Shown here: positions 6,492-41,152 of the stretch, piece after piece | How the letters are laid out: each line of letters opens with the position of its first letter | Position numbering within the stretch: position 1 is the stretch's first letter | DNA from: Neptunicoccus cionae | GTDB taxonomy: Bacteria > Pseudomonadota > Alphaproteobacteria > Rhodobacterales > Rhodobacteraceae | Assembly: GCF_014643735.1 (NCBI RefSeq) | Contig: NZ_BMKA01000001.1 | Coordinates: 992,001-1,056,000, forward strand | Length of the DNA stretch: 64,000 nucleotides | Direction of reading: 5' to 3' | Notes under the pieces: model-generated | Databases searched by the model: none | Told to the model about the DNA's origin: nothing | The model's input: only the letters and a program-made list of their open reading frames with translations | Translations under genes and position numbers: made by a program

Positions 6492-7766
6492 ATGACACTT
6501 GTACTGAAAAATTCCTGGGCTCTGCTTTTGGGTATGTTCCTGCTGATGCTTGGCAATGGTGTGCAAGGCACATTGCTTGGGATCAGGGGCGCGCTGGAAG
6601 GATTTACGCCGGGCAGTATGTCGCTGATCATGTCAGGGTATTTCGTCGGCTTTCTAGGCGGATCGCGCATGGCGCCGGGCATGATCCGGCGGGTGGGACA
6701 CGTGCGGGTTTTTGCGGCTCTGGCGTCAATGATTTCGGCTGCTTTGATACTTTATGCAGCAGTTCCAAACGAATACGTCTGGTTTTTCCTGCGGGTGGTT
6801 GTGGGGTTCTGCTTTTCCGGCGTGTATGTGGTCGCTGAAAGCTGGCTGAACGATTCTGCCACGAATGAAACGCGAGGGCAGGCATTGTCGGCCTACCTTA
6901 TCGTGCAAATGATGGGGATTGTTGCCGCGCAGTGGTTGCTGAACTTTGCTGATGTGGCAGGGTTCATCCTGTTTATCATTATCTCGGTTGCGGTTTCCGT
7001 TTCTTTCGCTCCGATTCTGTTGTCCGTTAGCCCCGCTCCGGTGTTTCACACGACCAAACCGATGACCTTGAAGGAGTTGTATCACGCTTCGCCCCTTGGC
7101 GTTGTGGGCACTTTCCTTCTGGGCGGTATCTTTGCGGCGCTATTCGGGATGACAGCGGTTTACGGGACCGAAAAAGGGATGAGTGTTGGCGAAATCTCTA
7201 TCTTCGTGGGGATAATCTATGTGGGCGGGATGCTGTGCCAGTTTCCCATTGGTTGGTTGTCGGACCGGATGGACCGGCGTCTTTTGATCATCGGAATCAC
7301 CATGATCGGCACCGCAGCCACTCTGGTGGCCTTTGCCTTTGCGTCCAATTTCACCATCCTGATGGTTTGTAGTTTTGTGATTGGCGGCACGGCGAACCCG
7401 CTTTATTCCTTGCTGCTCGCTTATACCAACGACTTTCTGGAGCTTGAGGACATGGCCGCGGCCAGTGGTGGTTTGATCTTTGTAAATGGAATCGGCGCAA
7501 TTGCTGGCCCGCTGATGGTGGGCTGGATGATGTCTACCTTCGGGTCGGACAGTTTCTTCCTTTATATCGGTGCCTTGACGATGACGATGGCACTTTATGC
7601 GATCTACCGGACCTTCCAGCGTGCGTCGCCGGATGTGGACGACACAAACAGTTACGCTCCGGTGTTCAGCACAGCATCGCCAGTGGCCTTTGAGGTGGCC
7701 CAAGAGGTCGCGATTGAAATGGCGCTAGAGGGTGAAGAAAACAACGATAGCGTTAACAGTTTGTAA
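6492..7766 (+). CDS. MFS transporter, YcaD-like
   Basis: 424 aa with about 12 hydrophobic membrane segments and a cytoplasmic, acidic C-terminal tail. MFS signs include the segment GGSRMAPGMIRRVGH between helices 2 and 3, ESWLNDSATNETRGQALSAY after helix 4, and GWLSDRMDRRLLI, the classic DRxxRR loop after helix 8. The ESWLN element matches YcaD-like transporters of unknown substrate. It lies 106 bases after queA on the same strand with no clear terminator between, so it could be cotranscribed. The substrate cannot be told from the sequence. Confidence 0.85.
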   Translation: MTLVLKNSWALLLGMFLLMLGNGVQGTLLGIRGALEGFTPGSMSLIMSGYFVGFLGGSRMAPGMIRRVGHVRVFAALASMISAALILYAAVPNEYVWFFLRVVVGFCFSGVYVVAESWLNDSATNETRGQALSAYLIVQMMGIVAAQWLLNFADVAGFILFIIISVAVSVSFAPILLSVSPAPVFHTTKPMTLKELYHASPLGVVGTFLLGGIFAALFGMTAVYGTEKGMSVGEISIFVGIIYVGGMLCQFPIGWLSDRMDRRLLIIGITMIGTAATLVAFAFASNFTILMVCSFVIGGTANPLYSLLLAYTNDFLELEDMAAASGGLIFVNGIGAIAGPLMVGWMMSTFGSDSFFLYIGALTMTMALYAIYRTFQRASPDVDDTNSYAPVFSTASPVAFEVAQEVAIEMALEGEENNDSVNSL

Positions 7767-7859
7767 AATAGTTAAAAAACTGTTGACGCGACGTGTTTCA
7801 GGCTCAAGTCTGGTCTTAAGGCCCAGTTATTTTGTGTATTAGCTATGTCGGAGGGAACT

Positions 7860-8438
7860 ATGGACAAAGCGAAAGAGATTATTGAGTTCTGGATCAACGA
7901 AGTCGGACCTAGCGGATGGTATCAAAGCACCAAGGCGCTTGATAACAAGATTAAAGACCGCTTTATGGACGATTACGAGGCCGCCAAGAAAGGCGATTAT
8001 GACGGATGGGGCAGTTGCCCTGACAAGTCGCTGGCCCTGTTGATCTTGCTGGACCAGTTTCCACGGAATATGTTTCGTGAAGACCCTCGCGCCTTTGCAA
8101 CGGATGCCAAAGCGTTGAAGGTCGCCGCCCATGCGATAGATGAAGGCTATGATATGCGCACGGACGAGCCGCAGCGTCAGTTCTATTATCTGCCGTTCAT
8201 GCATTCGGAATGTCTCACCCATCAGGAACGCTGTGTTCGCCTGATCGCCAAGCGGATGTCGGCCAACGGCAGCACCAATCTGCTGCATGCCAAGGTGCAT
8301 CGCGCCGTGATCCGCAAATTCGGGCGTTTTCCTTATCGGAACAATGCTTTGGGGCGGAATTCCACGCAGGGTGAGGTCGCGTTTCTTGAAAATGGCGGCT
8401 ACCAGCAGATGACCCAAGACGTTAAAGCCGCAGCCTGA
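7860..8438 (+). CDS. DUF924 family protein
   Basis: 192 aa. The protein has the DUF924 signature: EIIEFWINEVGPSGWYQSTKALDNKIKDRF, then LALLILLDQFPRNMFR, and HSECLTHQERCV in the helical C-terminal half; the family is a tetratricopeptide-like helical fold of unknown biochemical role. The start is taken at ATG 7860 because GGAGGG lies 5 bases upstream; the ATG at 7845 lies before that ribosome binding site and would add five residues. It is a single gene between the MFS transporter and lpdA. Confidence 0.83.
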   Translation: MDKAKEIIEFWINEVGPSGWYQSTKALDNKIKDRFMDDYEAAKKGDYDGWGSCPDKSLALLILLDQFPRNMFREDPRAFATDAKALKVAAHAIDEGYDMRTDEPQRQFYYLPFMHSECLTHQERCVRLIAKRMSANGSTNLLHAKVHRAVIRKFGRFPYRNNALGRNSTQGEVAFLENGGYQQMTQDVKAAA

Positions 8439-8568
8439 TCAGCGCTGCGGTAGTGTGTTGGGGACCGTTTTTCGCCATAGTTTTTGGTGCGCTCTTGCGA
8501 GATTGGATGAAATGTAGCATCCTAGTTGCAAGATAGTTTAACCTTGAACCAATTCTGCGAGGACGAGA

Positions 8569-9963
8569 ATGGCCGACACCCAGTTTGATATGATTGTGAT
8601 AGGCGCGGGGCCGGGCGGCTATGTCTGCGCGATCCGTGGCGCGCAAAACGGTTTGAAGGTCGCGGTGGTCGAACGGGAACATCTGGGCGGCATCTGTCTG
8701 AACTGGGGCTGCATCCCGACCAAGGCGCTGCTGCGCTCTTCCGAGGTGTTCCACCTGATGCACCGCGCCAAGGAGTTCGGTTTGAAAGCAGAAGGCATTG
8801 ATTACGATATTGATGCAGTGGTCAAACGCTCTCGTGGGGTGGCAAAGCAGCTTTCCGGTGGCGTCGGGCATCTTTTGAAGAAGAACAAAGTTACCGTCGT
8901 GATGGGCGCGGCAAAGCTTGCCGGTAAGGGCAAGGTTCTTGTCACCAACAATGACGGCGAGCAAACGCTTTCAGCCAAGACCATCGTTGTCGCCACGGGC
9001 GCCCGTGCCCGCGAATTGCCGGGGTTGGAGGCTGACGGCGAACGGGTCTGGACCTATCGCCACGCGCTGAACCCGCCTCACATGCCTAAAAAGCTGCTGG
9101 TGATCGGTTCCGGTGCGATTGGCATCGAATTTGCCAGCTTCTTCAACACCCTTGGGACAGACACCACTGTGGTCGAGGTGATGGACCGCGTGCTGCCGGT
9201 TGAAGACGAAGAAATCTCAAAACACGCGAAAAAGCAGTTTGAAAAACAGGGCATGACCATCATGGAGAAATCCACGGTCAAGAAGCTGGACCGCGCCAAG
9301 GATAAGGTTACGGCCCATATCGAAAAAGGCGGCAAGGTTGAGAAGCTGGAATTCGACACGGTAATTTCGGCGGTCGGTATTGTCGGGAACGTAGAAGGGC
9401 TGGGCCTGGAGGAAGCGGGGATCAAGGTGGATCGCACTCATGTGATCACTGACGAATACTGCCGCACGGGTGCCGACGGGATCTTTGCGATTGGCGACAT
9501 TGCCGGTGCGCCGTGGCTTGCCCATAAAGCGAGCCATGAAGGTGTTATGGTTGCTGATATGGTTGCGGGCAAACACGCCCATCCGGTGAAACCCGAAAGC
9601 ATCGCTGGCTGCACCTACTGCCACCCACAGGTCGCCAGTGTCGGTCTGACCGAGGCGAAAGCAAAGGAGGCGGGTTATGATATCAAAGTCGGACGCTTCC
9701 CTTTCATCGGCAACGGCAAAGCCATCGCGCTCGGCGAACCGGAGGGCATGGTGAAAACCATATTCGACGCCAAAACCGGAGAGCTGTTGGGCGCCCATAT
9801 GGTGGGTGCGGAAGTGACCGAGCTGATCCAAGGCTATGTGGTGGGCCGCCAGTTGGAGACAACCGAAGAAGATCTGATGCAGACTGTCTTCCCACACCCC
9901 ACACTGTCCGAGATGATGCACGAGAGTGTTCTTGATGCTTACGGGGCTGCGATCCATTTCTAG
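8569..9963 (+). CDS. lpdA: Dihydrolipoamide dehydrogenase (E3)
   Basis: 464 aa flavoprotein disulfide reductase that reoxidises dihydrolipoamide of 2-oxoacid dehydrogenase complexes, passing electrons through FAD to NAD+. Seen in order: FAD-binding VIGAGPGGYVCAIRGAQ, redox-active GGICLNWGCIPTK, NAD-binding VIGSGAIGIEFASFF, FAD-binding FAIGDIAGAPWLAHKA, and the C-terminal active-site HPTLSEMMHES with the catalytic His-Glu pair. The gene stands alone, not beside E1/E2 subunits, and is closed by a strong terminator. The lipoyl synthase gene lies 3.5 kb downstream, so lipoate-dependent metabolism is doubly represented here. Confidence 0.93.
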   Translation: MADTQFDMIVIGAGPGGYVCAIRGAQNGLKVAVVEREHLGGICLNWGCIPTKALLRSSEVFHLMHRAKEFGLKAEGIDYDIDAVVKRSRGVAKQLSGGVGHLLKKNKVTVVMGAAKLAGKGKVLVTNNDGEQTLSAKTIVVATGARARELPGLEADGERVWTYRHALNPPHMPKKLLVIGSGAIGIEFASFFNTLGTDTTVVEVMDRVLPVEDEEISKHAKKQFEKQGMTIMEKSTVKKLDRAKDKVTAHIEKGGKVEKLEFDTVISAVGIVGNVEGLGLEEAGIKVDRTHVITDEYCRTGADGIFAIGDIAGAPWLAHKASHEGVMVADMVAGKHAHPVKPESIAGCTYCHPQVASVGLTEAKAKEAGYDIKVGRFPFIGNGKAIALGEPEGMVKTIFDAKTGELLGAHMVGAEVTELIQGYVVGRQLETTEEDLMQTVFPHPTLSEMMHESVLDAYGAAIHF

Positions 9964-22182: not shown

Positions 22183-22797
22183 TCAGCTCGAGGTGACGTT
22201 TCCAACACTTGAAACACTGAAGCTGCGTTCAATTTCCACGGTTGGTGGAGCGCGTAAGGTTTGCAGGATGACACAGCTTCGCTCTGCCGCATCAATCAGT
22301 GCGTTTAGGTGCGGTTTTGAGTTCTCGCACTCTGTGTTCAGTTCAACCTTCAAGTGGGCCGTTTGAAATCCGACCGGCACATTGTCACCTGTCATCAACG
22401 CTCCGCGAACGTCGGCTCCCAGGCTGACCTGAACTTCGAGGCGGCTCAACTCTATGCCTTTAAGATTAGCAATCATGCGGATGGCTGTATCAAGACAACT
22501 GGCCAAGGCCGCGGCCAGAATTTCGCCTGGACATGGAAAGTCGCTTTCGCCACCTACAGCTTTGTGGACGGACACTGGGACGTCCACCGGAATGCCTTCG
22601 CCGCAAACCACATGCCCGTGGAGCGGATGGTTTGCGGGAGCTTGGGCATCAACTGTTTTTGCATGATCGTACACCCAAGCTGCTTCAGGTTTACTATGAT
22701 AACGCTTTCGCAATGGGAGTTGCCGGTCGAGAATGCGTGGTGGTTTAACATTTGTGAAAGACTGAATGTGGTGCAGATGTTTAGGATCCAATGTCAT
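22183..22797 (-). CDS. OsmC/Ohr family protein
   Basis: 204 aa. The protein has the OsmC fold signature: GGESDFPCPGEILAAALASCLDTAIRMIA with one active cysteine, a central strand region (GIELSRLEVQVSLGADVRG), and a second conserved cysteine in AAERSCVILQTLR. OsmC and Ohr proteins use these two cysteines to reduce organic hydroperoxides. This member has an N-terminal extension of about 45 residues and is longer than the usual 140-aa enzyme. Its start overlaps the end of the upstream MddA-like gene by 4 bases, so the two are coupled. A link between methylated thiols and thiol/peroxide chemistry is a reasonable but untested inference. Confidence 0.8.
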   Translation of the reverse strand: MTLDPKHLHHIQSFTNVKPPRILDRQLPLRKRYHSKPEAAWVYDHAKTVDAQAPANHPLHGHVVCGEGIPVDVPVSVHKAVGGESDFPCPGEILAAALASCLDTAIRMIANLKGIELSRLEVQVSLGADVRGALMTGDNVPVGFQTAHLKVELNTECENSKPHLNALIDAAERSCVILQTLRAPPTVEIERSFSVSSVGNVTSS

Positions 22798-23537
22798 TTG
22801 GCCGCCCCCCGCCCAAATCTCGGAAGAAATGCAGGAACCTTGTTTTGATATGTGATGTAATCCTCACCGAACTGGGCAATCAGATCCCTTTCCTCAAGAC
22901 GTAACACCGCGATGACGATGTATCCTGAGGTCACGAACGTAAACAAAAGATGACCGACTGTCATGGTCGGCGCGGTCCAAAAGGCGATCAGAAATCCGGT
23001 CATGATTGGATGGCACATGAAACGGTAAAGCCCGACTTCCATAAATCCCAGTTGGATTGGTTGGCGCTTTTTTAAGTTTGCGCAAACTTGTTTCAGCCCA
23101 AACAGATCAAAGTGATCAATCATGAAGGTTGAGGCCAAAACGACCAGCCAGCCGCCCCAAAAAAGAACGGTCAATGCTGTGCCGAGGACCGTATTTCTGA
23201 CGTCCCATACAACCGCCGGAAGCGGCTGCCAGAACGCGAAAATCATGATCAGGGCACCGCTTGTCATGAGTATATACGTACTACGTTCGGCAGCTTGCGG
23301 GATAACTGTAGTCCAGAGTCGTTTGAATGCTGGACGCGCCATAATGCTGTGCTGAAGAGCAAAGACAGACAGCAATACCAGATTGATAATCAGCGAGGAG
23401 GCGATTGGTCCTTGCGCGCCGGAATCGATTGATTTTGGCACCAGCATATTTCCGACAAAGCCGATGGAATAGAGGAACGTCGCCAGAAAAATAACGTAGA
23501 CGACGATGCCGTAGATAAATGTTAATGAGCGGCCCAT
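22794..23537 (-). CDS. mddA: NnrU/isoprenylcysteine-methyltransferase-like membrane protein, likely methanethiol S-methyltransferase (MddA-like)
   Basis: 247 aa with about five membrane segments. The C-terminal half carries the signature of this membrane methyltransferase family: TFMIDHFDLFGLKQV, YRFMCHPIMTGFLIAFWTAPTMTVGHLLF, and RLEERDLIAQFGEDYITY. In MddA proteins this region binds S-adenosylmethionine and methylates methanethiol to dimethyl sulfide. The usual YR-x-x-RHP is YRFMCHP here, with Cys replacing Arg before the His-Pro. The ribosome site AAAGGGG is 8 bases upstream of ATG. It heads a two-gene unit with the OsmC gene and is divergent from an HxlR regulator. An NnrU-like protein of other function is the alternative. 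Confidence 0.6.
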   Translation of the reverse strand: MGRSLTFIYGIVVYVIFLATFLYSIGFVGNMLVPKSIDSGAQGPIASSLIINLVLLSVFALQHSIMARPAFKRLWTTVIPQAAERSTYILMTSGALIMIFAFWQPLPAVVWDVRNTVLGTALTVLFWGGWLVVLASTFMIDHFDLFGLKQVCANLKKRQPIQLGFMEVGLYRFMCHPIMTGFLIAFWTAPTMTVGHLLFTFVTSGYIVIAVLRLEERDLIAQFGEDYITYQNKVPAFLPRFGRGAAK

Positions 23538-23616: not shown

Positions 23617-23653
23617 TTCGCAATCCGTATCAAACCACTACGCAATCCGTAGT
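23617..23653. promoter_or_regulatory. Candidate HxlR operator in the mddA-like/hxlR divergent gap
   Basis: The block CGCAATCCGTA occurs twice (23619-23629 and 23641-23651), 22 bases (two helical turns) apart. The second copy lies inside a perfect palindrome, ACTACG-CAATC-CGTAGT (23637-23653). It is 36 bases before the HxlR start and about 80-116 bases before the MddA-like start, a suitable place for autoregulation and divergent control. Confidence 0.5.
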
Positions 23654-32239: not shown

Positions 32240-32483
32240 CGAAAACAAAAAGCGGTCGTTGGCGCAGCCGCAGCGAATTTCCGCAAAGTCCGCATTTTTC
32301 CAGTTCGCGGCAGCGATTATGGAGGTCGGCTATCGCAGTTTGAGATCACAACCTGTTTGGTAACTTTGGGCTGGGACCAGTCATCCAGCTGGTCGCGATG
32401 CTGCGTGCAACGTCAAGTTAGGAGTGCCGCAGCGCCGCAAGTCCGGTTTGAGCCCAGACTAACCGATGCTGCAAGGTGCATGA
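32240..32483. repeat. Diverged intergenic repeat, copy B
   Basis: The segment 32366-32483 aligns along its whole length with 36551-36669 at roughly 80% identity by eye; the shared cores include GGGCTGGGACC, GGTCGCG, CGCCGCAAGTCCGGTTTGAG and ATGCTGCAAG. The preceding part (32240-32290: GTTGGCGCAGCCGCAGCGAA...GTCCGCA) matches copy C at 40.3 kb. The gap between the relaxase remnant and the serine recombinase (32096-32653) has no other supported feature. Confidence 0.75.
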
Positions 32484-32653: not shown

Positions 32654-33220
32654 CTAGCCCGTTTCGGTTGGCATCGTCTTGAGGCGGGAGATTGTTGATC
32701 TACTTACGCCCAAGAGCCTGCCGATCTCTGCTGCGGTCTTGCCCATCGACAGTAGGGAAAGCGCCTCAGCCCGGTCGGTCTCGCTTAGCTTCTTGGGTCG
32801 CCCTTTGCTCAGCCCGATAGACTTTGGGCGATCTTCGACAGCGCGGCTTTCCAGATCAGCCAAACCCAACTCGTAATCTATAACACCGCCAAGGATATCC
32901 AGAACCACCTCTGCGCGTTCGCCCTCAGTGTTGGCCCAAGGCTCTGCAATTGAACGAAATGCAGCTCCTTTTTTGCGCAGCATTTCTATCAGATTAAGAA
33001 GCTCAGCGATTGAATCGGCGACGGCTGACAACCTTGACACAACGACAACGTCCCCGGCTGAAACATCCGCTAGAAAAGTTTCCAGCGAGTTCGCCCCATC
33101 ATCTCCGTCTGCAGTAGTATCGCTCCAAACACGATCGCAGCCTTGCCGCTGAAGCTCGCTTAGCTGGACTTCATTTCGATACAATTTTGCCGATACGCGC
33201 GCATATCCGATTTTTACCAT
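32654..33220 (-). CDS. Serine recombinase (resolvase/invertase family)
   Basis: 188 aa. The catalytic domain begins KIGYARVSA with the nucleophile Ser10, followed by the typical GCDRVWSDTTADGDD region, AGDVVVVSRLSAVADSIAEL, and a C-terminal helix-turn-helix (TAAEIGRLLGVSRSTISRLK) preceded by GRPKKLSETD. In active family members the third block reads DRLGR; here the first arginine (SRL) is kept but the second is replaced by Ala/Val (LSAVADS), which may weaken or abolish activity. It lies between a relaxase remnant and the NCS1 transporters and would be the resolvase of an old transposon or plasmid. Confidence 0.85.
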   Translation of the reverse strand: MVKIGYARVSAKLYRNEVQLSELQRQGCDRVWSDTTADGDDGANSLETFLADVSAGDVVVVSRLSAVADSIAELLNLIEMLRKKGAAFRSIAEPWANTEGERAEVVLDILGGVIDYELGLADLESRAVEDRPKSIGLSKGRPKKLSETDRAEALSLLSMGKTAAEIGRLLGVSRSTISRLKTMPTETG

Positions 33221-33306
33221 TTGCGTTCATACTCGCCGTTGTTCTTGACTAATGCACGCGGTTCTGCACGACCATAGCGTTGGGCCAAAGAAAAGACAAT
33301 CACTCC

Positions 33307-34749
33307 ATGAGCCATCGGGACGCTATGCGGGACGCATCAACTCAAATTCACAAAGATCCCAGCCTCTATAATGAGGATCTAGCACCGACGCCTTCAGGCG
33401 AGCGCGACTGGGGCTGGTTTGAGCTGCTCAACGTATGGGCCAATGATGTGCAATCGCTGTTTGGTTATACATTGGCGGCATCACTTTTTGTGACCTACGG
33501 ACTGAATGGGTGGGCGGTGTTTGCCGGAATCGTACTGGCAGGTTTTGTCGTCATGGGCCTGGTCAATCTGATCGGCAAACCCAGCGTCGAACACGGGATT
33601 CCATTTCCCGTTATGGCACGCGCCAGCATGGGCGTGCGGGGCGCAAATTTCCCAGCCATGATCCGCGCCGTCGTCGCCATCTTTTGGTTTGGAGTTCAGA
33701 CCTATTTTGCTTCAACCGCGCTGGCGCTGGCGCTTATTGCACTGATTGGGTCAAATGGCCCGTCCGTCTTTCTGGGCTTTAGTTCCATCCAGTGGATCGC
33801 CTTCTTGGCGGTATGGGCATTTCAGATCACGTTATTTTGGAACGGGATCGATCTCATCGTGAATTTCCTCAATTTCGCGGGTCCATTTGTCTACGTTGTG
33901 ATGGTGACACTTGCCGTTACGATCTGGATCGAGGTTGGTAATGATCTGTGGCTGGAACTTGGTACGATCTTTCGTGGCACAGGCAACTATCATGGCAGTT
34001 CGCTGGGGGCATTTGTCGCCATTGTCGGCACTATGATCGCCTATTTTTCAGCTGTTATCATCAACTTTGGCGATTTCTCGCGGTTCGTGCGCTCGGAGCA
34101 TGAGATGCGCAAAGGCAACCTGCTGGGTCTACCAATAAACATCGCCTTCTTTTCATTGATTGCCCTGATCGTGACAGCAGGGACTGTTGCGCTTTGGGGT
34201 GAGCCGATGACCAATCCAACAGACATTGTTGCCCGCATAGATTCATTGCCTTTGACAATACTTGCAGCAATTACATTTTTCGCCGCCACGGTCGGGATCA
34301 ACCTTGTCGCAAACTTCATCCCACCCGCCTATGACCTTGCAAACCTGATGCCCAGCCGGATCAATTTCCGTGTCGCTGGCATCATCACGTCTGCCTGTGC
34401 GTTGGTGATCGGGGGCCTTTGGGTGTCGACAATCAGTCAGATCGGAATCTTGGGTCTTGTGAACACATTGGGGGCCGTTCTGGCACCGGTCTACGGCATC
34501 ATCGTTGTCGATTATTATCTGGTCAAATTCGGCAAGCTGGATGTTGACCAGCTCTTCTCGGCGGCGTGCGACGGAGAATATTTCTACACCAACGGCTGGA
34601 ACATTGCGGCAATCGTGTCCTTCGTTTTACCAGCAACATTTTCAGTCCTGACGGTTTGGGTTCCGATGCTGAATGCTCTTTCGGGATTCGCATGGGTGAT
34701 CGGCGCAGGGTTTGGAGGCGTCTTCTACTGGGCAATCGCGAAGCGTTAG
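33307..34749 (+). CDS. NCS1-family nucleobase/hydantoin:cation symporter, copy 1
   Basis: 480 aa with 12 membrane segments. The start of helix 1 reads FELLNVWANDVQSLFGYTLAAS, and HGIPFPVMARASMGVRGANF followed by AIFWFGVQTYFASTAL matches the Mhp1/HyuP/PucI-type region that lines the substrate site. Such transporters bring in hydantoins, allantoin, uracil or related compounds with Na+ or H+. The substrate cannot be told from sequence alone. ATG 33307 is preferred over TTG 33280. It is followed after 137 bases by a clear paralogue. Confidence 0.85.
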   Translation: MSHRDAMRDASTQIHKDPSLYNEDLAPTPSGERDWGWFELLNVWANDVQSLFGYTLAASLFVTYGLNGWAVFAGIVLAGFVVMGLVNLIGKPSVEHGIPFPVMARASMGVRGANFPAMIRAVVAIFWFGVQTYFASTALALALIALIGSNGPSVFLGFSSIQWIAFLAVWAFQITLFWNGIDLIVNFLNFAGPFVYVVMVTLAVTIWIEVGNDLWLELGTIFRGTGNYHGSSLGAFVAIVGTMIAYFSAVIINFGDFSRFVRSEHEMRKGNLLGLPINIAFFSLIALIVTAGTVALWGEPMTNPTDIVARIDSLPLTILAAITFFAATVGINLVANFIPPAYDLANLMPSRINFRVAGIITSACALVIGGLWVSTISQIGILGLVNTLGAVLAPVYGIIVVDYYLVKFGKLDVDQLFSAACDGEYFYTNGWNIAAIVSFVLPATFSVLTVWVPMLNALSGFAWVIGAGFGGVFYWAIAKR

Positions 34750-34886
34750 CGCGGTAATTTATCCGAAGCCTTCGGGCGGGGGAGTGGCCACGTGACAAGG
34801 CCAAGATTGGACAGGGCAGTCAGCCCAAGCCAAGTCACGCACAAAACAAATAGGGGACAATCCCCACATCCATCTTGGAGGAAGAC

Positions 34887-36293
34887 ATGGACAGTAAAAG
34901 CACGACGAATCCCGAAGGGGATACACTAAATCCTGCAACACCGGACGAAAAAACTTGGGGGTCGTTCGCGATCTTCAACGTCTGGGCCAACGATGTGCAA
35001 TCGCTCTTTGGCTATTCATTGGTTGCCTCGCTCTTTATCTCGTTTGGCGTCGGGGGTTTGACAGCATTTGCAGCGTTGATCGCCTCTGGGCTTTTCGTAA
35101 TGTTCATGGTGAACCTTTCTGGTGCACCCGGTGAAAAGTACGGCATTCCGTTTCCGGTTCTAGCGCGCTCCAGCATGGGCACGGCAGGTTCCAAATTGCC
35201 AGCTGTCCTGCGCGCCGTTGTGGCGGTGTTTTGGTACGGTGTTCAGGTCTATTTCGCATCCACTGCACTCTCGTTGCTGATCCGTTCGCTAACAGGCATC
35301 AGTGGTGGAACGGAGATGCTGGGATTGACCGGAATTGATTGGCTCTCTTTCGTTGTTGTTTGGGCCATCCACATCGCGATCTTCTGGCGCGGCATGGGCT
35401 GGGTTGAAAAATTCCTCAATTTCGCCGGGCCGTTTGTCTATATCGTAATGATCGGTCTTGTGATCGTGCTTTGGCAGCGTGCTGATGGGCAATTGCTGAG
35501 CGCGACTGCAACAATCTTTGCTAATCCAGAGGGGACATTCAGCACTGAACTCAAAGGCTTCATCGCTATTTTTGGAACCATGGTCGCCTATTTCTCAGCT
35601 GTGATGATCAACTTCTCTGACTTCTCACGCTATTCTCGTAGCAAGGCATCCATGAAAATAGGCAACCTGACCGGATTGCCGCTGAACATGATCCTGTTCT
35701 CAGCATTGGCGCTTTTGACAACAGGTGGTGCTGCCGTTGTGTTTGGCGAAGCTATCATCAACCCAACCGAGATTGTCGAAAGAACTGACAGCGTTTTGTT
35801 GGCCATTATCGCGGCGATCACGTTCTTCGCAGCGACTGTAGGCATCAATCTGGTTGCGAACTTCATCCCTGCGGTGAATGGCATCGCCAACCTCGCACCG
35901 GGCAAGATCAGCTTCCGTCAAGCGGGTTTGGCCACGTCAGTCTTTGCCTTGGTTATCGGTGGACTGTGGACGGCCGTCATCTCAAACATCGGGATTTCTG
36001 GGTTCGTTAACACACTTGGTGCAACGCTGGCACCGATCTTCGGTATCATGATTGTTGATTACTACAAGATTCGCAAAGAAGAGCTGAACGTTGATGACCT
36101 CTACAACTTGGAAGGTGGAGACTATCATTACGGGAATGGCTGGAACGACAAGGCACTGATGGCCTTTGGGATTGCTTCCGTGTTCTCAGTCGCGACGGTT
36201 TGGGTCCCAGCATTGGGCTTCTTGTCAGGCTACGCTTGGATCATCGGCGCAATCCTTGGCGGCGTTGTCTATCTTGCGGTTACAAAAAAGTAA
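34887..36293 (+). CDS. NCS1-family nucleobase/hydantoin:cation symporter, copy 2
   Basis: 468 aa, 12 membrane segments, clearly a paralogue of copy 1: both share NVWANDVQSLFGY, IPFPV-AR-SMG, AAITFFAATVGINLVANFIP and the C-terminal GIIVVDYY/GIMIVDYY block. The start is ATG 34887, with GGAGGAAGAC immediately upstream; the frame from TTG 34875 adds only four residues that are the ribosome site itself. The two copies may differ in substrate or affinity, or one may act as a sensor for the two-component system downstream. Confidence 0.85.
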   Translation: MDSKSTTNPEGDTLNPATPDEKTWGSFAIFNVWANDVQSLFGYSLVASLFISFGVGGLTAFAALIASGLFVMFMVNLSGAPGEKYGIPFPVLARSSMGTAGSKLPAVLRAVVAVFWYGVQVYFASTALSLLIRSLTGISGGTEMLGLTGIDWLSFVVVWAIHIAIFWRGMGWVEKFLNFAGPFVYIVMIGLVIVLWQRADGQLLSATATIFANPEGTFSTELKGFIAIFGTMVAYFSAVMINFSDFSRYSRSKASMKIGNLTGLPLNMILFSALALLTTGGAAVVFGEAIINPTEIVERTDSVLLAIIAAITFFAATVGINLVANFIPAVNGIANLAPGKISFRQAGLATSVFALVIGGLWTAVISNIGISGFVNTLGATLAPIFGIMIVDYYKIRKEELNVDDLYNLEGGDYHYGNGWNDKALMAFGIASVFSVATVWVPALGFLSGYAWIIGAILGGVVYLAVTKK

Positions 36294-36550
36294 CTTTCGA
36301 ACGACGCCTAGCTATGGGCTGCCCCCAACTGGGTGCCATTCGTGGCACCCTCTTTTACTCACGACTTGCGATGGCTTCGGTTTGGCGGTCGTTGCTGCTT
36401 TAGAGAACAGACCAGACATTCCTAGCTATCTCCGCAATGTCGGTTTTGTCCGCACACCGGACCTTCGCCCTTCAAAAATGCTGCACGATGCACGAATGGC
36501 TGGTCTCGGGAAGCCGCAATGCGGCACCCACGCTAGGCATGAAGGTCGGC

Positions 36551-36669
36551 TCTGGGCTGGGACCGGTCATCCGGTTGGTCGCGCCGAAGCCTGCAAGGTC
36601 AAAATTTGCGTGCCTCACCGCCGCAAGTCCGGTTTGAGCCCAAATTAACAAATGCTGCAAGTTGCATAG
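36551..36669. repeat. Diverged intergenic repeat, copy A
   Basis: Aligns along 118-119 bases with copy B at 32366-32483. The rest of the 513-base gap (36294-36806) between the second NCS1 gene and the sensor kinase holds no supported gene; at 36474-36497 the words AATGCTGCACGATGCA resemble the end of the repeat (AATGCTGCAAGTTGCA), so part of a second copy may lie just before it. Confidence 0.75.
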
Positions 36670-36806
36670 ATATCCGCTCCCTTACCCCGACGAAAGTATG
36701 GAAATTGACAAATCATTTATGCGCGGAATCTCGATCGGGTTGTCATCGCGGCAAAGCCTTTGACCGTAGAAATACGGATTGGAGTTTGCGGCTACACCTG
36801 CGATGA

Positions 36807-38327
36807 ATGCTGATGACTGCCACAACCTCAAACAATTTCTGGCGATACGCTTTGTTATGGGCGTTTGCCGTCATGCTCACGCTAAGCGGGATGGCGCTTT
36901 TTGAACGACAAAGTCTGGTCCGTGAACTGACCGTCAAAAGTGCGACGCTGCATCGCTTGGCCTCCCAGCGGGCGGATCAGCATGACGCGCATCTGACATC
37001 TCTGTCTGCGATTTTTGTGGCGGGCGGGGGTGAGCGACAAGATTTGTTGTTGGATGTCGCCGCGACTATCACTCGATTCTATCCGCGTATCACGTCGGTG
37101 AATGTCGTCCCATACGACCCGTCGCAACCGGTGATAGAAACGCAGCCCAGGCAATCGGCACAACCGAGGGAGCGCATTATTGAAATGGCCCGCCGCTCAA
37201 CCGGAGCTTTGGAAATCGGCCAAGTGACAGAACTACCGGATCACTACCTGCTTGTAAAACGCACGCCCAATTCTGATGCGGCACAGCACGGTTTGGCGCT
37301 TATAATCGACGCGCGTGCGCTGATTGCCACGGAAGATCCGTTTTGGGACGCGCCATCGGCGTCTTTGCGTCTTTCCACACCGGACGGCCAAACGGCATTG
37401 GTGGGTCAGGTTTCACCGGCTGAGACCGGGTTTTCCAAACCGCTTGGCAGTGTGTCGCAACCTTTGGTGTTTGAAACCTCCTTGGCCATAGGGCTGTCTG
37501 ATCTCTTGCCGGTTGGGAAAGCGGTTTCAGTCATTGCACTGGTCACGACACTCTTTTTGCTGTCGGCTTTCGGTTTCAAGCAACGCGCGCGCACCAAAGA
37601 TGCAGAGAACAGCGCCAAGCTGAGCGCGCAGGAAACGCGGCTTGCCCATGCCTCTCGCGTCAATGCGATGGGTGAAATGGCTAGCGGCATGGCCCATGAG
37701 CTGGCCCAACCGCTGACCGCGATCCTGAGCCAAGCACAGGCTGGCAAACACTTAGCGCGGCGCGGTGACGTCGCGCGTCTTGGCACTGTGTTGGACGACA
37801 CGGTATCCCAAGCACAGCGTGCGGCGAACATCCTTGATCGCTTGCGACGATGGAGCAAACCGAACCGTGCCCCATCTGAGGCCTGTTCGGTCCATGAAGC
37901 CGCCCAAAGCGTGCAGAACCTGCTGACATTGGAGGCCAAGACGAACGGGGATGCGATTATCTTATCGTTGCATGATAGTCCCCTCTTTATCGACGCCGAT
38001 CCGGTCGAGTTAGAACAGGTTGTAATTAATCTGGTGCGCAACGCGCTCGATGCCTCGGACGCGGCACAGGTCATGATCCGCACACATGTCGTAGGTCACT
38101 CGGTCATTTTAGATGTCAGCGATACTGGGCCAGGAGTGCCTGAGCACCTCAAGCCCCGCATCTTTGAACCTTTTGTAACTGGCAAACCGGATGGAACGGG
38201 GCTTGGCCTCGCGCTGTGTCAAAGCCTGGTTGATGAAATGGGCGGCGATATCGCGCTGTTGGACAACACCAAACAGACCACGTTCCGCTTGTCCCTGCCG
38301 CTTTCGACCAAGGCTGTCGCACCATGA
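36807..38327 (+). CDS. Membrane sensor histidine kinase
   Basis: 506 aa. Two membrane helices (about residues 10-30 and 232-250) enclose a periplasmic sensor domain of about 200 residues. The cytoplasmic part has the H-box AMGEMASGMAHELAQPLTAI with the phosphorylated histidine, the N-box VINLVRNALDASD, G1 DTGPGVP and G2 GTGLGLALCQ. The H-box resembles the DctB/FixL kinase group. The 3' end overlaps the response regulator start by 4 bases. ATG 36807 is assumed; ATG 36813 is also possible. The signal is unknown; the adjacent transporters and exported HbpS-like protein are candidates for input. Confidence 0.88.
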   Translation: MLMTATTSNNFWRYALLWAFAVMLTLSGMALFERQSLVRELTVKSATLHRLASQRADQHDAHLTSLSAIFVAGGGERQDLLLDVAATITRFYPRITSVNVVPYDPSQPVIETQPRQSAQPRERIIEMARRSTGALEIGQVTELPDHYLLVKRTPNSDAAQHGLALIIDARALIATEDPFWDAPSASLRLSTPDGQTALVGQVSPAETGFSKPLGSVSQPLVFETSLAIGLSDLLPVGKAVSVIALVTTLFLLSAFGFKQRARTKDAENSAKLSAQETRLAHASRVNAMGEMASGMAHELAQPLTAILSQAQAGKHLARRGDVARLGTVLDDTVSQAQRAANILDRLRRWSKPNRAPSEACSVHEAAQSVQNLLTLEAKTNGDAIILSLHDSPLFIDADPVELEQVVINLVRNALDASDAAQVMIRTHVVGHSVILDVSDTGPGVPEHLKPRIFEPFVTGKPDGTGLGLALCQSLVDEMGGDIALLDNTKQTTFRLSLPLSTKAVAP

Positions 38328-38929
38328 CGAACCATGTTTACCTCGTTGATGATGATGAGGCCGTTCGCAACGCCTTAAGCCTTCTGTTGGAAACCGTCGG
38401 GCTGAATGTGCGCAGCTTTGCATCGCCCGAGACATTTTTGGCGCAAGCGGCAGACCTGACGCCGGGCTGCCTGATCCTTGATATTAGAATGCCTGCGATT
38501 TCGGGCCTTAAACTCCAAGAAAGGCTGACCGACCAAGGCGTGTCATGGCCCACGGTGATCATCAGTGGACACGGCGATATCGAGGCGTGTCGGCGCGCTT
38601 TTCGCAATGGGGCGATTGATTTCCTCAGCAAACCTGTGGACGAACAAGACCTGACCGACGCGATCCAGAAGGGTCACGGCGAGCTTGAAACCCACCAACA
38701 AGCCTCGGCAGAACGTGCCGAGGCAGTGGCGTTGGTCCAGCACTTGTCCACACGGGAGCAAGAAGTTCTTGAAATGATCGCGAAGGGTCTGACGACTAAA
38801 CAAATCGCCGATGCGCTGACCCTGTCGCCCCGAACGGTTGAAAGTCACCGCGCAGCAATTGCGGCCAAGGCAGGCACGTCTTCGGCGGCTGAACTCACGC
38901 GGTATTGGCTGGACGCCAACGCGGAATAA
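38324..38929 (+). CDS. FixJ/NarL-type response regulator
   Basis: 201 aa. The receiver domain begins NHVYLVDDDEAVRNALSLLL, with the phospho-acceptor Asp in CLILDIRMPAISG and the conserved Lys in FLSKPVDEQDL. A LuxR-type helix-turn-helix follows (about residues 138-195): LSTREQEVLEMIAKGLTTKQ, IADALTLSPRTVESHRAAI. It pairs with the kinase encoded just upstream (4-base overlap) and would control target promoters, perhaps those of the NCS1 genes or of the exported proteins downstream. The HbpS-like gene starts 107 bases after its stop. Confidence 0.9.
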   Translation: MTNHVYLVDDDEAVRNALSLLLETVGLNVRSFASPETFLAQAADLTPGCLILDIRMPAISGLKLQERLTDQGVSWPTVIISGHGDIEACRRAFRNGAIDFLSKPVDEQDLTDAIQKGHGELETHQQASAERAEAVALVQHLSTREQEVLEMIAKGLTTKQIADALTLSPRTVESHRAAIAAKAGTSSAAELTRYWLDANAE

Positions 38930-39035
38930 CACGCGGATCAGTAGAACTACGGACACCTTTGCGGATGCTACGAATATCGCGAGTCAGCGCGGCGAATTAG
39001 AAACGGAGCATCAGTTCAACAAAAGGAAATACACA

Positions 39036-39518
39036 ATGATCCGTTCCATCACTCTTGCCACAGCTCTGCTGACACCCATCGCAGCCTTCGCCCAAGACCT
39101 GCCCACAGCACCTTACTTGCCGCTCGAGATGGCAACCACAGCCGCCCAAGCCGCTGTCGCTGCATGTTCTGCTGAAGGCCACAACGTCAGCGTCGCAATC
39201 GTTGCGCGCAGCGGTGAGACCAAAGTGCTTTTGCGCGCTGACAATGCAGGCCCGCATACTGTCGGTTCCAGCACAGGCAAAGCGTTCACATCCGCCAGCA
39301 TGGGCCGTGACACGGCAGGTATTGCGGACTTTATCGGTGGAAACCCTGAGAATGGTGGTCTGCGCGATATGGACAGCCGTTTGGTCATTCAGGCTGGCGG
39401 TCTGCCAATCCGGATCGGTGGCGCATTGGTCGGTGGCATCGGTGTCGGTGGCGCACCATCCGGCGCGATTGACGAGACATGTGCCCGTGCAGGTCTTGAC
39501 GCAATCGGCGCTGAATAA
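39036..39518 (+). CDS. Exported HbpS/GlcG-family protein
   Basis: 160 aa. A signal peptide (MIRSITLATALLTPIAAFAQ) precedes the GlcG/HbpS domain: PLEMATTAAQAAVAACSAEG, then VSVAIVARSGETKVLLRADN, KAFTSASMGRDT, and the glycine-rich IRIGGALVGGIGVGGAPSG. Streptomyces HbpS is an extracellular haem-binding protein that interacts with the SenS sensor kinase. AAAAGGAAAT is upstream of ATG. The gene lies just after a two-component pair and just before an exported ankyrin protein, so an HbpS-like accessory sensor role is plausible. Haem binding cannot be proved from the sequence. Confidence 0.85.
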   Translation: MIRSITLATALLTPIAAFAQDLPTAPYLPLEMATTAAQAAVAACSAEGHNVSVAIVARSGETKVLLRADNAGPHTVGSSTGKAFTSASMGRDTAGIADFIGGNPENGGLRDMDSRLVIQAGGLPIRIGGALVGGIGVGGAPSGAIDETCARAGLDAIGAE

Positions 39519-39574
39519 TCCAATCGCGGCTCGCCCTTCATCGCGGCGGGCCACTCACTTTGAAAGGTGACACG

Positions 39575-40237
39575 ATGTTTCGTTTCTTACTGCTTGCCGT
39601 AATTCTTACCGCTGGAACCGCCCAAGCTCAGACCGCTCCATCCGCCTCAGACATCGCTTCTTACACAGGCTTGCACCTTGCCGCCCACGAGGGCGACGTG
39701 GATGAGATCAACCGTTTGATCACAACAGGTTCCGACGTGGACATCCGCGATCTGTCACAGCGCACGCCTGCACATGTCGCAGCATTTGCGTCGCACGATG
39801 ACGCTCTGATCGCACTGGCCAATGGTGGCGCAGACATGAATGCCCTCGAAAATCGTGTTTATGATGTGCTGACAATCGCAGCCGTCGCCGACGATCCTGA
39901 AATGGTATCGCTGGCAATGGAACTTGGAAACGCACCGGATCTGATCACCAGCGTTTATGACGGCACAGCCCTTATTGCCGCCGCTCACCTTGGACATCAC
40001 GACGTGGTCGCGCGTCTTGTCGAAGGTGGCGCACCGCTTGACCATATCAACAATCTCGCATGGACTGCTTTGATCGAGGCAGTCGTCTTAGGTAACGGCG
40101 GCCCGGATCATATCAAAACAGTGCAAATCCTCGTTGATGCAGGAGCAGATAAATCCATCGGAGATCGCGATGGCGTCACACCGCTTCAATACGCCACGTC
40201 ACGCGGTTACGCCGAAATGATCGAAATCCTGCAATAG
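39575..40237 (+). CDS. Exported ankyrin-repeat protein
   Basis: 220 aa. A signal peptide (MFRFLLLAVILTAGTAQAQ) is followed by about five ankyrin repeats, e.g. YTGLHLAAHEGDVDEINRLI, QRTPAHVAAFASHDDALIAL, GTALIAAAHLGHHDVVARLV and VTPLQYATSRGYAEMIEIL. Such repeats make protein-protein contacts. The start is ATG 39575, with AAAGGTG 6 bases upstream; the TTG at 39560 would disrupt the signal peptide. It follows the HbpS-like gene by 56 bases and probably shares its transcript, so it may bind or protect the HbpS-like protein in the periplasm. Confidence 0.85.
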   Translation: MFRFLLLAVILTAGTAQAQTAPSASDIASYTGLHLAAHEGDVDEINRLITTGSDVDIRDLSQRTPAHVAAFASHDDALIALANGGADMNALENRVYDVLTIAAVADDPEMVSLAMELGNAPDLITSVYDGTALIAAAHLGHHDVVARLVEGGAPLDHINNLAWTALIEAVVLGNGGPDHIKTVQILVDAGADKSIGDRDGVTPLQYATSRGYAEMIEILQ

Positions 40238-40239
40238 GA

Positions 40240-40259
40240 GGTAGGGCAATGACCCTACC
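40240..40259 (+). terminator. Hairpin after the ankyrin gene
   Basis: GGTAGGG and CCCTACC form a perfect 7-bp stem with a 6-base loop directly after the stop codon. No T-run follows, so termination is uncertain. Confidence 0.4.
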
Positions 40260-40317
40260 AAATCGTGCTATTTTGAAGGCAGCCGTGCCCACCAACCTCA
40301 ATGCAACCTTCCCATAG

Positions 40318-40360
40318 CAGCCGTTGGCGCAACCGCAGCGAAATGGCGCTCTGTCCGCAG
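40318..40360. repeat. Diverged intergenic repeat, copy C (partial)
   Basis: CGTTGGCGCAACCGCAGCGAA...GTCCGCA parallels the first part of copy B (32240-32290). The surrounding 40308-40470 contains further related words (GCAGCGAATGGCGGCAATAC). It separates the ankyrin gene from the NYN gene. Confidence 0.5.
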
Positions 40361-40471: not shown

Positions 40472-41152
40472 TCAATTGCCAAAACCTTGAGGCACAAACC
40501 TAACCTTCGCCTCTGGTCCACGTGGGTCAAGCTGGTAGAGTTCTGGACGCTTTGAAAGATAAGCGCGCCAAGTCCGTTCGACATGTGAACTTATCTTCAC
40601 ACCATGCGAAGAGTGCATTTTGGGTGCTAATTCCGAAATTCGCATGCCAAGTCCATTTTTGCTATGAATGGCAATCATTGCACGTATCTTTTCGTCCAAC
40701 TTGGATGGGCCATCACGCCGTTGAATTGTTGATTTCGGAGGCATGACATCAAGTTTGGAGATCACGGTCGAGAATTCGGTACAAGCCGCAGGAAACGAGA
40801 ATTGTGCCTTGCCTTCGCCAAGACCATACACCTCAGCGCCTCGTTCACGAAGTCGGTAAGCGAGATGAGAGAAATCTCCGTCAGATGTTGCTATTACGAA
40901 CGTCTGAATCTCACTAAGTTGACAGGTTTCAATGGCGTCGATGGAAAGCAGAATGTCTGCACCATTCTTTCCTGGACCTGCATGGACAAAACGGAAACCT
41001 AGAGCTTCCATCCTACCCGAGGCCGGATGTGCGCCGCCGTACACGCGGGCCACATCTAAACGCCCCAATTGCTTTGCGAAGGCCATTATCTCTTCGCTGA
41101 AACAAGGGCTGATGTTGTCTCCATCAACAAAAAGAGCAATTGACGATCCCAT
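40472..41152 (-). CDS. NYN-domain protein with LOTUS/OST-HTH-like C-terminus
   Basis: 226 aa. The N-terminal NYN (PIN-like) nuclease domain shows the acidic catalytic set: IALFVDGDNIS (Asp10, Asp12), KNGADILLSIDAIE, and FVIATSDGDFSHLAYRLRER. The C-terminal 75 residues (KLDEKIRAMIAIHSKNGLGM, ISELAPKMHSSHGVKISSHV) resemble the winged-helix OST-HTH/LOTUS module that binds RNA. The pairing is known in LabA-like proteins; an RNase role is inferred. It stands between repeat copy C and the broken integrase and has no clear operon partner. It may serve RNA turnover or defence against phage or plasmids. Confidence 0.8.
   Translation of the reverse strand: MGSSIALFVDGDNISPCFSEEIMAFAKQLGRLDVARVYGGAHPASGRMEALGFRFVHAGPGKNGADILLSIDAIETCQLSEIQTFVIATSDGDFSHLAYRLRERGAEVYGLGEGKAQFSFPAACTEFSTVISKLDVMPPKSTIQRRDGPSKLDEKIRAMIAIHSKNGLGMRISELAPKMHSSHGVKISSHVERTWRAYLSKRPELYQLDPRGPEAKVRFVPQGFGN

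Follow-up and report, generated by a model that had tools for sequence, protein, structure and literature searches.

A conserved kinase-regulator-HbpS cassette with an optional ankyrin gene and a predicted operator of its own

Do six adjacent genes of Neptunicoccus cionae form one sensory system and, if not, which of them belong together? The genes lie in a 64-kb stretch of contig NZ_BMKA01000001.1 (positions 992,001 to 1,056,000; hereafter the window, with positions counted from its first nucleotide) and encode two NCS1 transporters, a sensor histidine kinase, a response regulator, an HbpS-like protein, and an ankyrin-repeat protein. An initial annotation had joined all six into one sensing module. 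The positions of the open reading frames (ORFs) and their domains confirmed that all six genes are on the + strand and that a kinase-regulator pair is followed by the HbpS-like and ankyrin genes. Only part of the proposed module was upheld by comparison across genomes: the kinase, regulator, HbpS-like, and ankyrin genes are co-conserved across many genera, and the NCS1 transporters are not members. The last four genes (36807-40237) are, as judged from sequence comparison, a conserved unit with an optional ankyrin gene, and they recur together in so many genera that the arrangement is beyond chance. On balance, they probably constitute a horizontally moving, self-contained three-component cassette in which the regulator acts on hbpS (and ank, where present) and HbpS is the sensor of a negative-feedback homeostat. 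The features of the cassette are as follows.

36807-38327, + strand, sensor histidine kinase with HisKA and HATPase_c domains and two hydrophobic stretches
38324-38929, + strand, FixJ/NarL-type response regulator with Response_reg and GerE domains (receiver and LuxR-type helix-turn-helix)
38938-38975, + strand, predicted operator: palindrome TCAGTAG-AA-CTACGGA (38938-38953), 14 bp, and half-site CTACGAAT (38968-38975)
39036-39518, + strand, hbpS, HbpS-like protein, putatively exported (PF03928, E 7e-29; ATG at 39036, stop codon ending at 39518)
39575-40237, + strand, ank, predicted exported ankyrin-repeat protein (start at 39560 or, more likely, ATG at 39575)

The start of the regulator gene overlaps the stop of the kinase gene (38324 versus 38327), and ank is the second gene behind the operator. 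In both the HbpS-like and the ankyrin protein, inspection of the sequence showed an N-terminal hydrophobic segment that closes with AxA.

Distribution of the cassette

Related loci (L001 to L097) were chosen by similarity, with near-duplicates (L026/L090 and L001/L009) counted, and loci with a regulator and an HbpS gene were designated triads. There were 64 triads. The ankyrin gene was directly downstream of hbpS in 32 of them, was not in 31, and was cut off in 1; an adequate kinase was not found by gene calling in 3 of the 64. Plasmids, which were searched by tblastn, carried the order kinase-regulator-HbpS-ankyrin in Pseudosulfitobacter, Maritalea, Defluviimonas, Variovorax, and Deinococcus. 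Triads without the ankyrin gene, or with it upstream, were found in Martelella, Paracoccus, Gemmobacter, Rhizobium, and a plasmid of Salmonella houtenae. HbpS-ankyrin pairs without a kinase were detected in Agrobacterium F2 and Shinella, and the ankyrin gene alone in three further loci of the plasmid search. A scan of genome contigs with an HbpS alignment yielded at least 418 loci; the triads among the best 80 belonged to Rhodobacterales, Hyphomicrobiales, Halomonas, and Burkholderiales. Thus, the cassette is scattered over several proteobacterial orders, with a divergent form in Deinococcus, and its flanking genes vary from locus to locus.

Two genome samples were less selected. In one family, HbpS-type proteins (E 1e-15) were present in 37 of 198 genomes. 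The top 11 (>230 bits; next, 151) were all in the full four-gene order, and at least 3 of these 11 genomes (G016, G019, and G110) were already among the similarity-chosen loci. Of 30 weaker matches, 19 loci were examined, and none had a partner within ∼1.5 kb. Cassette-type HbpS was present in 13 of 297 genomes of another order (6 complete cassettes, 3 without the ankyrin gene, 3 HbpS-ankyrin pairs without kinase and regulator, and 1 solitary gene); two of the nine triad genomes (G009 and G011) were known before.

Presence in a small percentage of genomes, carriage on plasmids, and an HbpS tree in which the cassette-bearing orders intermingle fit horizontal transfer of the cassette. The plasmid locus L001 and L009, from another genus, were 96.8% identical over 15.6 kb and 99.95% identical over 4.2 kb. 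Single plasmid copies were located beside a beta-lactamase gene or a chromate-efflux gene.

HbpS and the ankyrin protein are also linked on their own, apart from the two-component genes. Pairs without an adjacent kinase or regulator occurred at L206, L207, L209, and L072, three of which were seen to be without the operator. At L013 (Sulfitobacter brevis, 6963-9513), the regulator gene was split by ∼2.5 kb, with operator, hbpS, and ank kept.

A predicted operator upstream of hbpS

The space between the regulator gene and hbpS has the consensus TCCGTAG-NN-CTACGGA-N14-CTACGAAT, to which the window has one mismatch in the left arm. The strict pattern was present in 56 of 94 loci; the spacer to the half-site was 14 bp long in 50 of these loci and 13 or 15 bp long in the others. 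Of 65 triads, the window, Variovorax, and Deinococcus included, 63 had the palindrome with at most 2 mismatches in 14 positions, versus 0 of 650 shuffles. One of the two exceptions, L093, has an altered palindrome that is nevertheless perfect (7/7). The arms pair at their third position in either of two complementary ways (C-G in 33 and G-C in 9 of 64). Overlap with the stop codon of the regulator gene was seen in some loci and not in others, such as the window, and coding constraint therefore does not explain the left arm. Palindromes with ≤3 mismatches were retained in 4 of 28 loci that are not triads, namely, L013 and L055, in which the regulator is broken, and L004 and L094.

Downstream of the half-site, position 23 was T in 56 and position 24 was A in all 57 of the 57 aligned loci, and CATCA was common at positions 34 to 38 (41 to 47 of 57 per position). 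The T and A correspond to the first two positions of a candidate promoter element:

38998-39003, + strand, candidate -10 element TAGAAA (first two positions T in 56 and A in 57 of 57 aligned loci)

We infer the layout of a class-II activator-dependent promoter in which the half-site covers the -35 region, and binding by the regulator of the cassette would then activate rather than repress hbpS.

A related element precedes the kinase gene in the window:

36764-36777, strand not assigned, palindrome CCGTAGAAATACGG, 1 of 12 mismatches to the operator palindrome, a possible autoregulatory site

Such a palindrome (≤2 of 12 mismatches) was detected in 20 of 65 loci, in the clade of the window and one other clade, and it was rejected as a general feature of the cassette. 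Autoregulation of the kinase-regulator operon is possible in those two clades. A second operator-like site, with one mismatch and a 15-bp spacer, is present on the - strand of the window at 23623, ∼85 nt upstream of a gene without a Pfam match (22794-23537) that is followed by an OsmC gene.

Number of operator targets per genome

In 22 cassette genomes, which were picked from the best 80 of the at least 418 HbpS loci after the motif had been seen, the full operator (≤2 mismatches) was located before hbpS in every genome, and the only site elsewhere overlapped it. The exact pattern was found in 7 of 198 and 4 of 385 sampled genomes, samples that overlap in a few genomes; these were 9 distinct genomes, and in all 9 the pattern was at a four-gene cassette. 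In the 297-genome order sample, the palindrome (≤3 mismatches, a threshold set after the values had been seen) was present in all nine loci with kinase and regulator and in none of the four without. The operator thus depends on the presence of the two-component genes, which ties it to the regulator. All seven of the previously unknown triad genomes had the palindrome, for which a simple hand count gives 1 in 330.

A wider regulon was considered and rejected. Among the matches listed for 12 genomes, a list that does not extend to G002 and G603, the shorter palindrome (≤1 mismatch) gave 8 to 24 hits per genome, fewer than its reversed control. Four further exact hits examined among the genomes listed lie within rpsB (L167), where a dnaE-like gene starts (L165), a short distance upstream of an acyl-CoA-ligase-like gene (L178), and where a TRAP-type gene ends (L184); no recurrence was seen for any of these four sites. 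Thus, the regulator most likely drives mainly hbpS (and ank), a closed loop as far as operator sequences can indicate.

The kinase, the HbpS-like protein, and the ankyrin protein

The hydrophobic stretches of the kinase begin at residues 14 and 239, are 19 residues long each, and enclose ∼205 residues, in agreement with the large periplasmic domain noted initially. This sensor region (residues 34 to 238) has 25 invariant columns among 35 sequences. An alignment of the 35 sensor domains gave best matches at chance level in Pfam (E 0.04) and the PDB (E 0.2), and Foldseek and VIA fold searches with the kinase returned lists filled by kinase cores. The AlphaFold model of the kinase has, in the sensor region, a long helix and, after it, elements of mixed alpha-beta structure. 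The closest NCBIfam models, all below their cut-offs, were FixJ (185 bits) and TtrR (150 bits) for the regulator and TtrS (157 bits) for the kinase. FixL/FixJ and TtrS/TtrR are therefore the closest systems by sequence among these models; they differ from the window in that its kinase has no Pfam sensor domain and its proposed target is hbpS.

The model of the HbpS-like protein had a mean predicted local distance difference test (pLDDT) score of 91. Its best PDB matches were to HbpS of Streptomyces reticuli (3fpw/3fpv), with 45% identity over the model and template modelling (TM) scores of 0.79/0.90, followed by Desulfovibrio piger 4nkp, NahX, OrfY, EfgA, and PduOC. C44, H74, K82, D146, and C149 were invariant in all 94 HbpS-like sequences; the pattern used in the HbpS search spans residues 133 to 141, and the five invariant residues fall outside it. 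C44 lies in the first helix and C149 in the last helix of the model. These cysteines were also present in 18 (C44) and 19 (C149) of 19 weaker family members and absent from two Streptomyces-type proteins, and thus they mark a Gram-negative group rather than the cassette alone. The segment YESAERK of Streptomyces HbpS, which includes the iron motif E78xxE81 and the dityrosine residue Y77 (PMC3754957 and PMC3184428), corresponds to VGSSTGK in the window protein.

K83 and D143 are reported as a lysine and an aspartate fully conserved in HbpS (PMC3754957), and they correspond to K82 and D146 in the window protein, which shares domain and fold with OrfY, PduOC, NahX, and EfgA. EfgA binds formaldehyde through a lysine, a serine, and an aspartate (K57, S114, and D121) and is a cytoplasmic formaldehyde sensor (PMC8153426), whereas the window protein is predicted to be exported and is tied to a two-component system. 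As for possible counterparts of these EfgA residues, K82 and D146 were invariant in 94 of 94 sequences and position 142 was variable in weaker relatives.

The predicted exported ankyrin protein, encoded next to a possible haem protein, resembles a pair from Pseudomonas in which the periplasmic ankyrin protein AnkB is reportedly needed by the catalase KatB. The cassette differs in having no catalase gene; the neighbor is the HbpS-like protein. An anti-phage function was also considered and was rejected, as PADLOC hits were obtained only through the helix-turn-helix, receiver, and ankyrin parts.

Proposed circuit

In the proposed circuit, the kinase would read a periplasmic condition and phosphorylate the FixJ-like regulator. 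The phosphorylated regulator would bind at 38938-38975 and activate hbpS and, where present, ank; in the clade of the window, it may also activate its own kinase-regulator operon. HbpS would be the main product of the circuit and, by analogy with Streptomyces, most likely its periplasmic sensor. Fresh HbpS may contact the kinase and hold it down, and ligand-bound or oxidized HbpS would release it, which would provide negative feedback. The ankyrin protein may be a periplasmic partner or chaperone of HbpS. Candidate signals are haem, iron, or cobalamin; a redox change sensed through C44-C149; and a small aldehyde. The logic follows that of HbpS, SenS, and SenR, as the initial annotation had suggested, and we judge it to be the best reading of the locus.

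Several observations weigh against this circuit. The ankyrin gene is missing in 31 of the 64 triads, and in one of the 11 family-sample cassettes (L131), the ankyrin match consists of two pieces. HbpS is found without two-component genes, alone or with the ankyrin gene (L206, L207, L209, L210, Nitrospira, and others), and L004 and L094, which are HbpS-ankyrin loci with no adjacent regulator, retain the palindrome. The Salmonella plasmid cassette (L007) has no recognizable palindrome (6 mismatches), and the exact operator pattern misses 4 of the 11 family-sample cassettes. A single target per genome applies to sites close to the full operator (≤2 mismatches), and weaker sites lie outside that statement. 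A reversed control pattern gave 22 hits in the same 22 genomes, and hence the scarcity of other sites is partly a matter of base composition. Y77, E78, and E81, the residues thought to be used for sensing in Streptomyces HbpS, are absent from the window protein. Support is weak at the deep forks in the HbpS tree (88/50 and 86/23), so that kinase class, more than the tree, is the basis for a pairing separate from that of Streptomyces. Finally, Leisingera thetidis (L089, 7941-10087) has a related kinase-regulator pair without HbpS. At that locus, genes for an AraC-type regulator and a quinohemoprotein amine dehydrogenase follow the pair in place of hbpS.

A rather unlikely, though credible, alternative is that the periplasmic domain of the kinase itself detects the stimulus, with HbpS acting as an effector only, which binds, degrades, or detoxifies the compound. 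The size of that domain and its 25 invariant columns agree with direct sensing, as do the occurrence of HbpS without a kinase and the L089 pair without HbpS, and the plasmid copies beside a beta-lactamase or chromate-efflux gene are reminiscent of resistance cassettes. However, the one well-studied HbpS acts on its kinase (PMC3184428 and PMC4991794), and the tie between operator and hbpS, almost without other full sites, is well explained by a feedback sensor.

The cassette may be an undescribed, widely transferred Gram-negative device, a reading that we hold only tentatively: HbpS would be joined to a second class of kinase whose periplasmic sensor domain is new, each genome would have one full operator, and HbpS, as sensor and effector (with the ankyrin protein), would be practically the sole output, all of which would amount to a portable closed-loop homeostat. 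No paper on a set of HbpS/DUF336, ankyrin, and two-component genes was found in the open-licence PMC text. The operator makes the circuit directly testable. With practically one target, it would make a clean model of accessory-protein sensing and might serve as a portable part for biosensors. Few DUF336/HbpS members have a known function, and the cysteine pair and the closed loop offer a handle.

Relation to the Streptomyces system

In S. reticuli, oxidation decides whether HbpS inhibits SenS or activates it, and phosphorylated SenR activates hbpS (PMC3184428); control of SenS by HbpS and activation of hbpS by phosphorylated SenR are also described in the introduction of PMC4991794. As in Streptomyces, the window has a PF03928 protein, of the same fold and 45% identical, beside a kinase and a LuxR-type regulator. 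Streptomyces SenR controls further genes, furS-cpeB and others. The gene order is hbpS-senS-senR in Streptomyces (PMC4991794) and kinase-regulator-hbpS in the cassette. The kinases also differ: the cassette kinases were HisKA in 37 of 37 aligned members, the window kinase being HisKA as well, with a ∼205-residue periplasmic domain, whereas the HbpS-linked kinase of Streptomyces chartreusis (L189), the one Streptomyces example from which the class is known here, is HisKA_3 (E 6e-16), and its gene is divergent from hbpS. Cassette HbpS lacks Y77 and E78xxE81, has C44/C149, may be accompanied by an ankyrin gene, and has one full operator per genome in the 22 cassette genomes. The comparison indicates that the cassette probably works like HbpS-SenS-SenR but is not of that family.

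It is thus very unlikely that the cassette is a true HbpS-SenS-SenR orthologue running an oxidative-stress regulon with a catalase-peroxidase. HbpS homology and the LuxR-type regulator would be expected of an orthologue, but the kinase class (compared as a domain class, with one Streptomyces example), the gene order, the absence of Y77, E78, and E81, and the absence of a further full operator in the 22 genomes all argue otherwise. According to the introduction of PMC4991794, the clustering of hbpS-like genes with kinase and regulator genes of this kind is confined to actinobacteria; the pairing was found here across Proteobacteria and Deinococcus, with another kinase class.

The NCS1 transporter genes

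The remaining two of the six genes are separated from the four-gene block by 513 nt.

33280-34749, + strand, first NCS1 transporter gene (PF02133, E 4e-74)
34875-36293, + strand, second NCS1 transporter gene (PF02133, E 1e-71)

An NCS1 relative was found near only 1 of the 64 triads (L003; flanks of up to ∼10 kb, some shortened by contig ends), and the one other relative among the 97 loci was at L064, where HbpS has neither a kinase nor a regulator beside it. Of 20 cassette genomes, 4 had a relative of the second NCS1 protein (E 1e-60), on another contig in three and ∼447 kb away in one. No operator (up to 2 mismatches) was detected in front of either NCS1 gene. The two longest DNA matches to the window (L001 and L009, which are nearly identical to each other) cover 36636-40356 and end there. 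The start of this similarity falls inside a repeat at 36550-36667 that is 81% identical to 32364-32481; the repeat that had been noted at 36.6 kb as a possible recombination seam is therefore real.

Since NCS1 genes are rare near triads, distant in other genomes, and without an operator, and since homology starts at 36636, the tandem NCS1 genes appear to be unrelated neighbors of the cassette, and they were rejected as part of the system on these four grounds. The transporters are not co-conserved with the cassette genes, the outcome that the initial annotation had named as refuting its module. A nitrogenous ring compound as the input, which had been suggested by the transporters, lost its support with them; only L003 and L064 have NCS1 and ureide genes near. 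A purine or ureide theme was likewise rejected as too rare, with a nucleoside deaminase gene in 5 and an allantoicase gene in 2 of the 97 loci. The allantoicase gene is directly upstream of the kinase gene in L003 (7946-8764) and of the kinase-less hbpS in L064 (8861-9667), with NCS1 genes near, and a related ankyrin gene adjoins a nucleoside deaminase gene in L005 (5538-6688), L097 (7923-9100), L039, and L055.

A single system of all six genes for a nitrogenous ring compound is therefore largely refuted and highly improbable. Adjacency and shared direction in the window speak for it, as do the NCS1 and allantoicase genes of L003 and L064 and the deaminase genes beside ankyrin relatives in the four loci just named; these are outweighed by the single NCS1 relative among 64 triad loci, its presence in 4 of 20 cassette genomes and there far from the cassette, the missing operator, and the start of cassette homology at 36636. 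Least probable of all is that the four genes merely travel together as neutral passengers, which the many plasmid copies might suggest, because the gene order persists, with changing flanks, from Rhodobacterales to Deinococcus and because the operator accompanies the two-component genes.

Genomic surroundings in the window

Noncoding repeat pieces, 80 to 81% identical, are located at 32251-32481, 36550-36667, and 40316-40359, the edges of the NCS1 block and the cassette. Repeat pieces of 30 to 57 nt were found in 5 of 10 related genomes, and a piece with 88% identity was found on a Sulfitobacter plasmid.

The recA and alaS genes are 21 kb apart in the window (21877-42943). In ten cassette-bearing Rhodobacterales genomes, to which window RecA and AlaRS are 81 to 87% and 73 to 77% identical, respectively, the recA and alaS matches were ∼135 to 225 nt apart and codirectional in nine and ∼970 nt apart and opposite in the tenth. 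The stretch between the two genes contains a resolvase gene (32654-33220) and integrase pieces. Because of this separation and of the resolvase and integrase sequences inside, the stretch looks like a plastic region or island.

Beside alaS, a tyrosine integrase is apparently fragmented: 41475-42125 matches PF00589, and, on visual inspection, integrase-like ORFs in other frames extend as far as 42637. A gene for an NYN-domain protein (40472-41152, - strand) faces the cassette.

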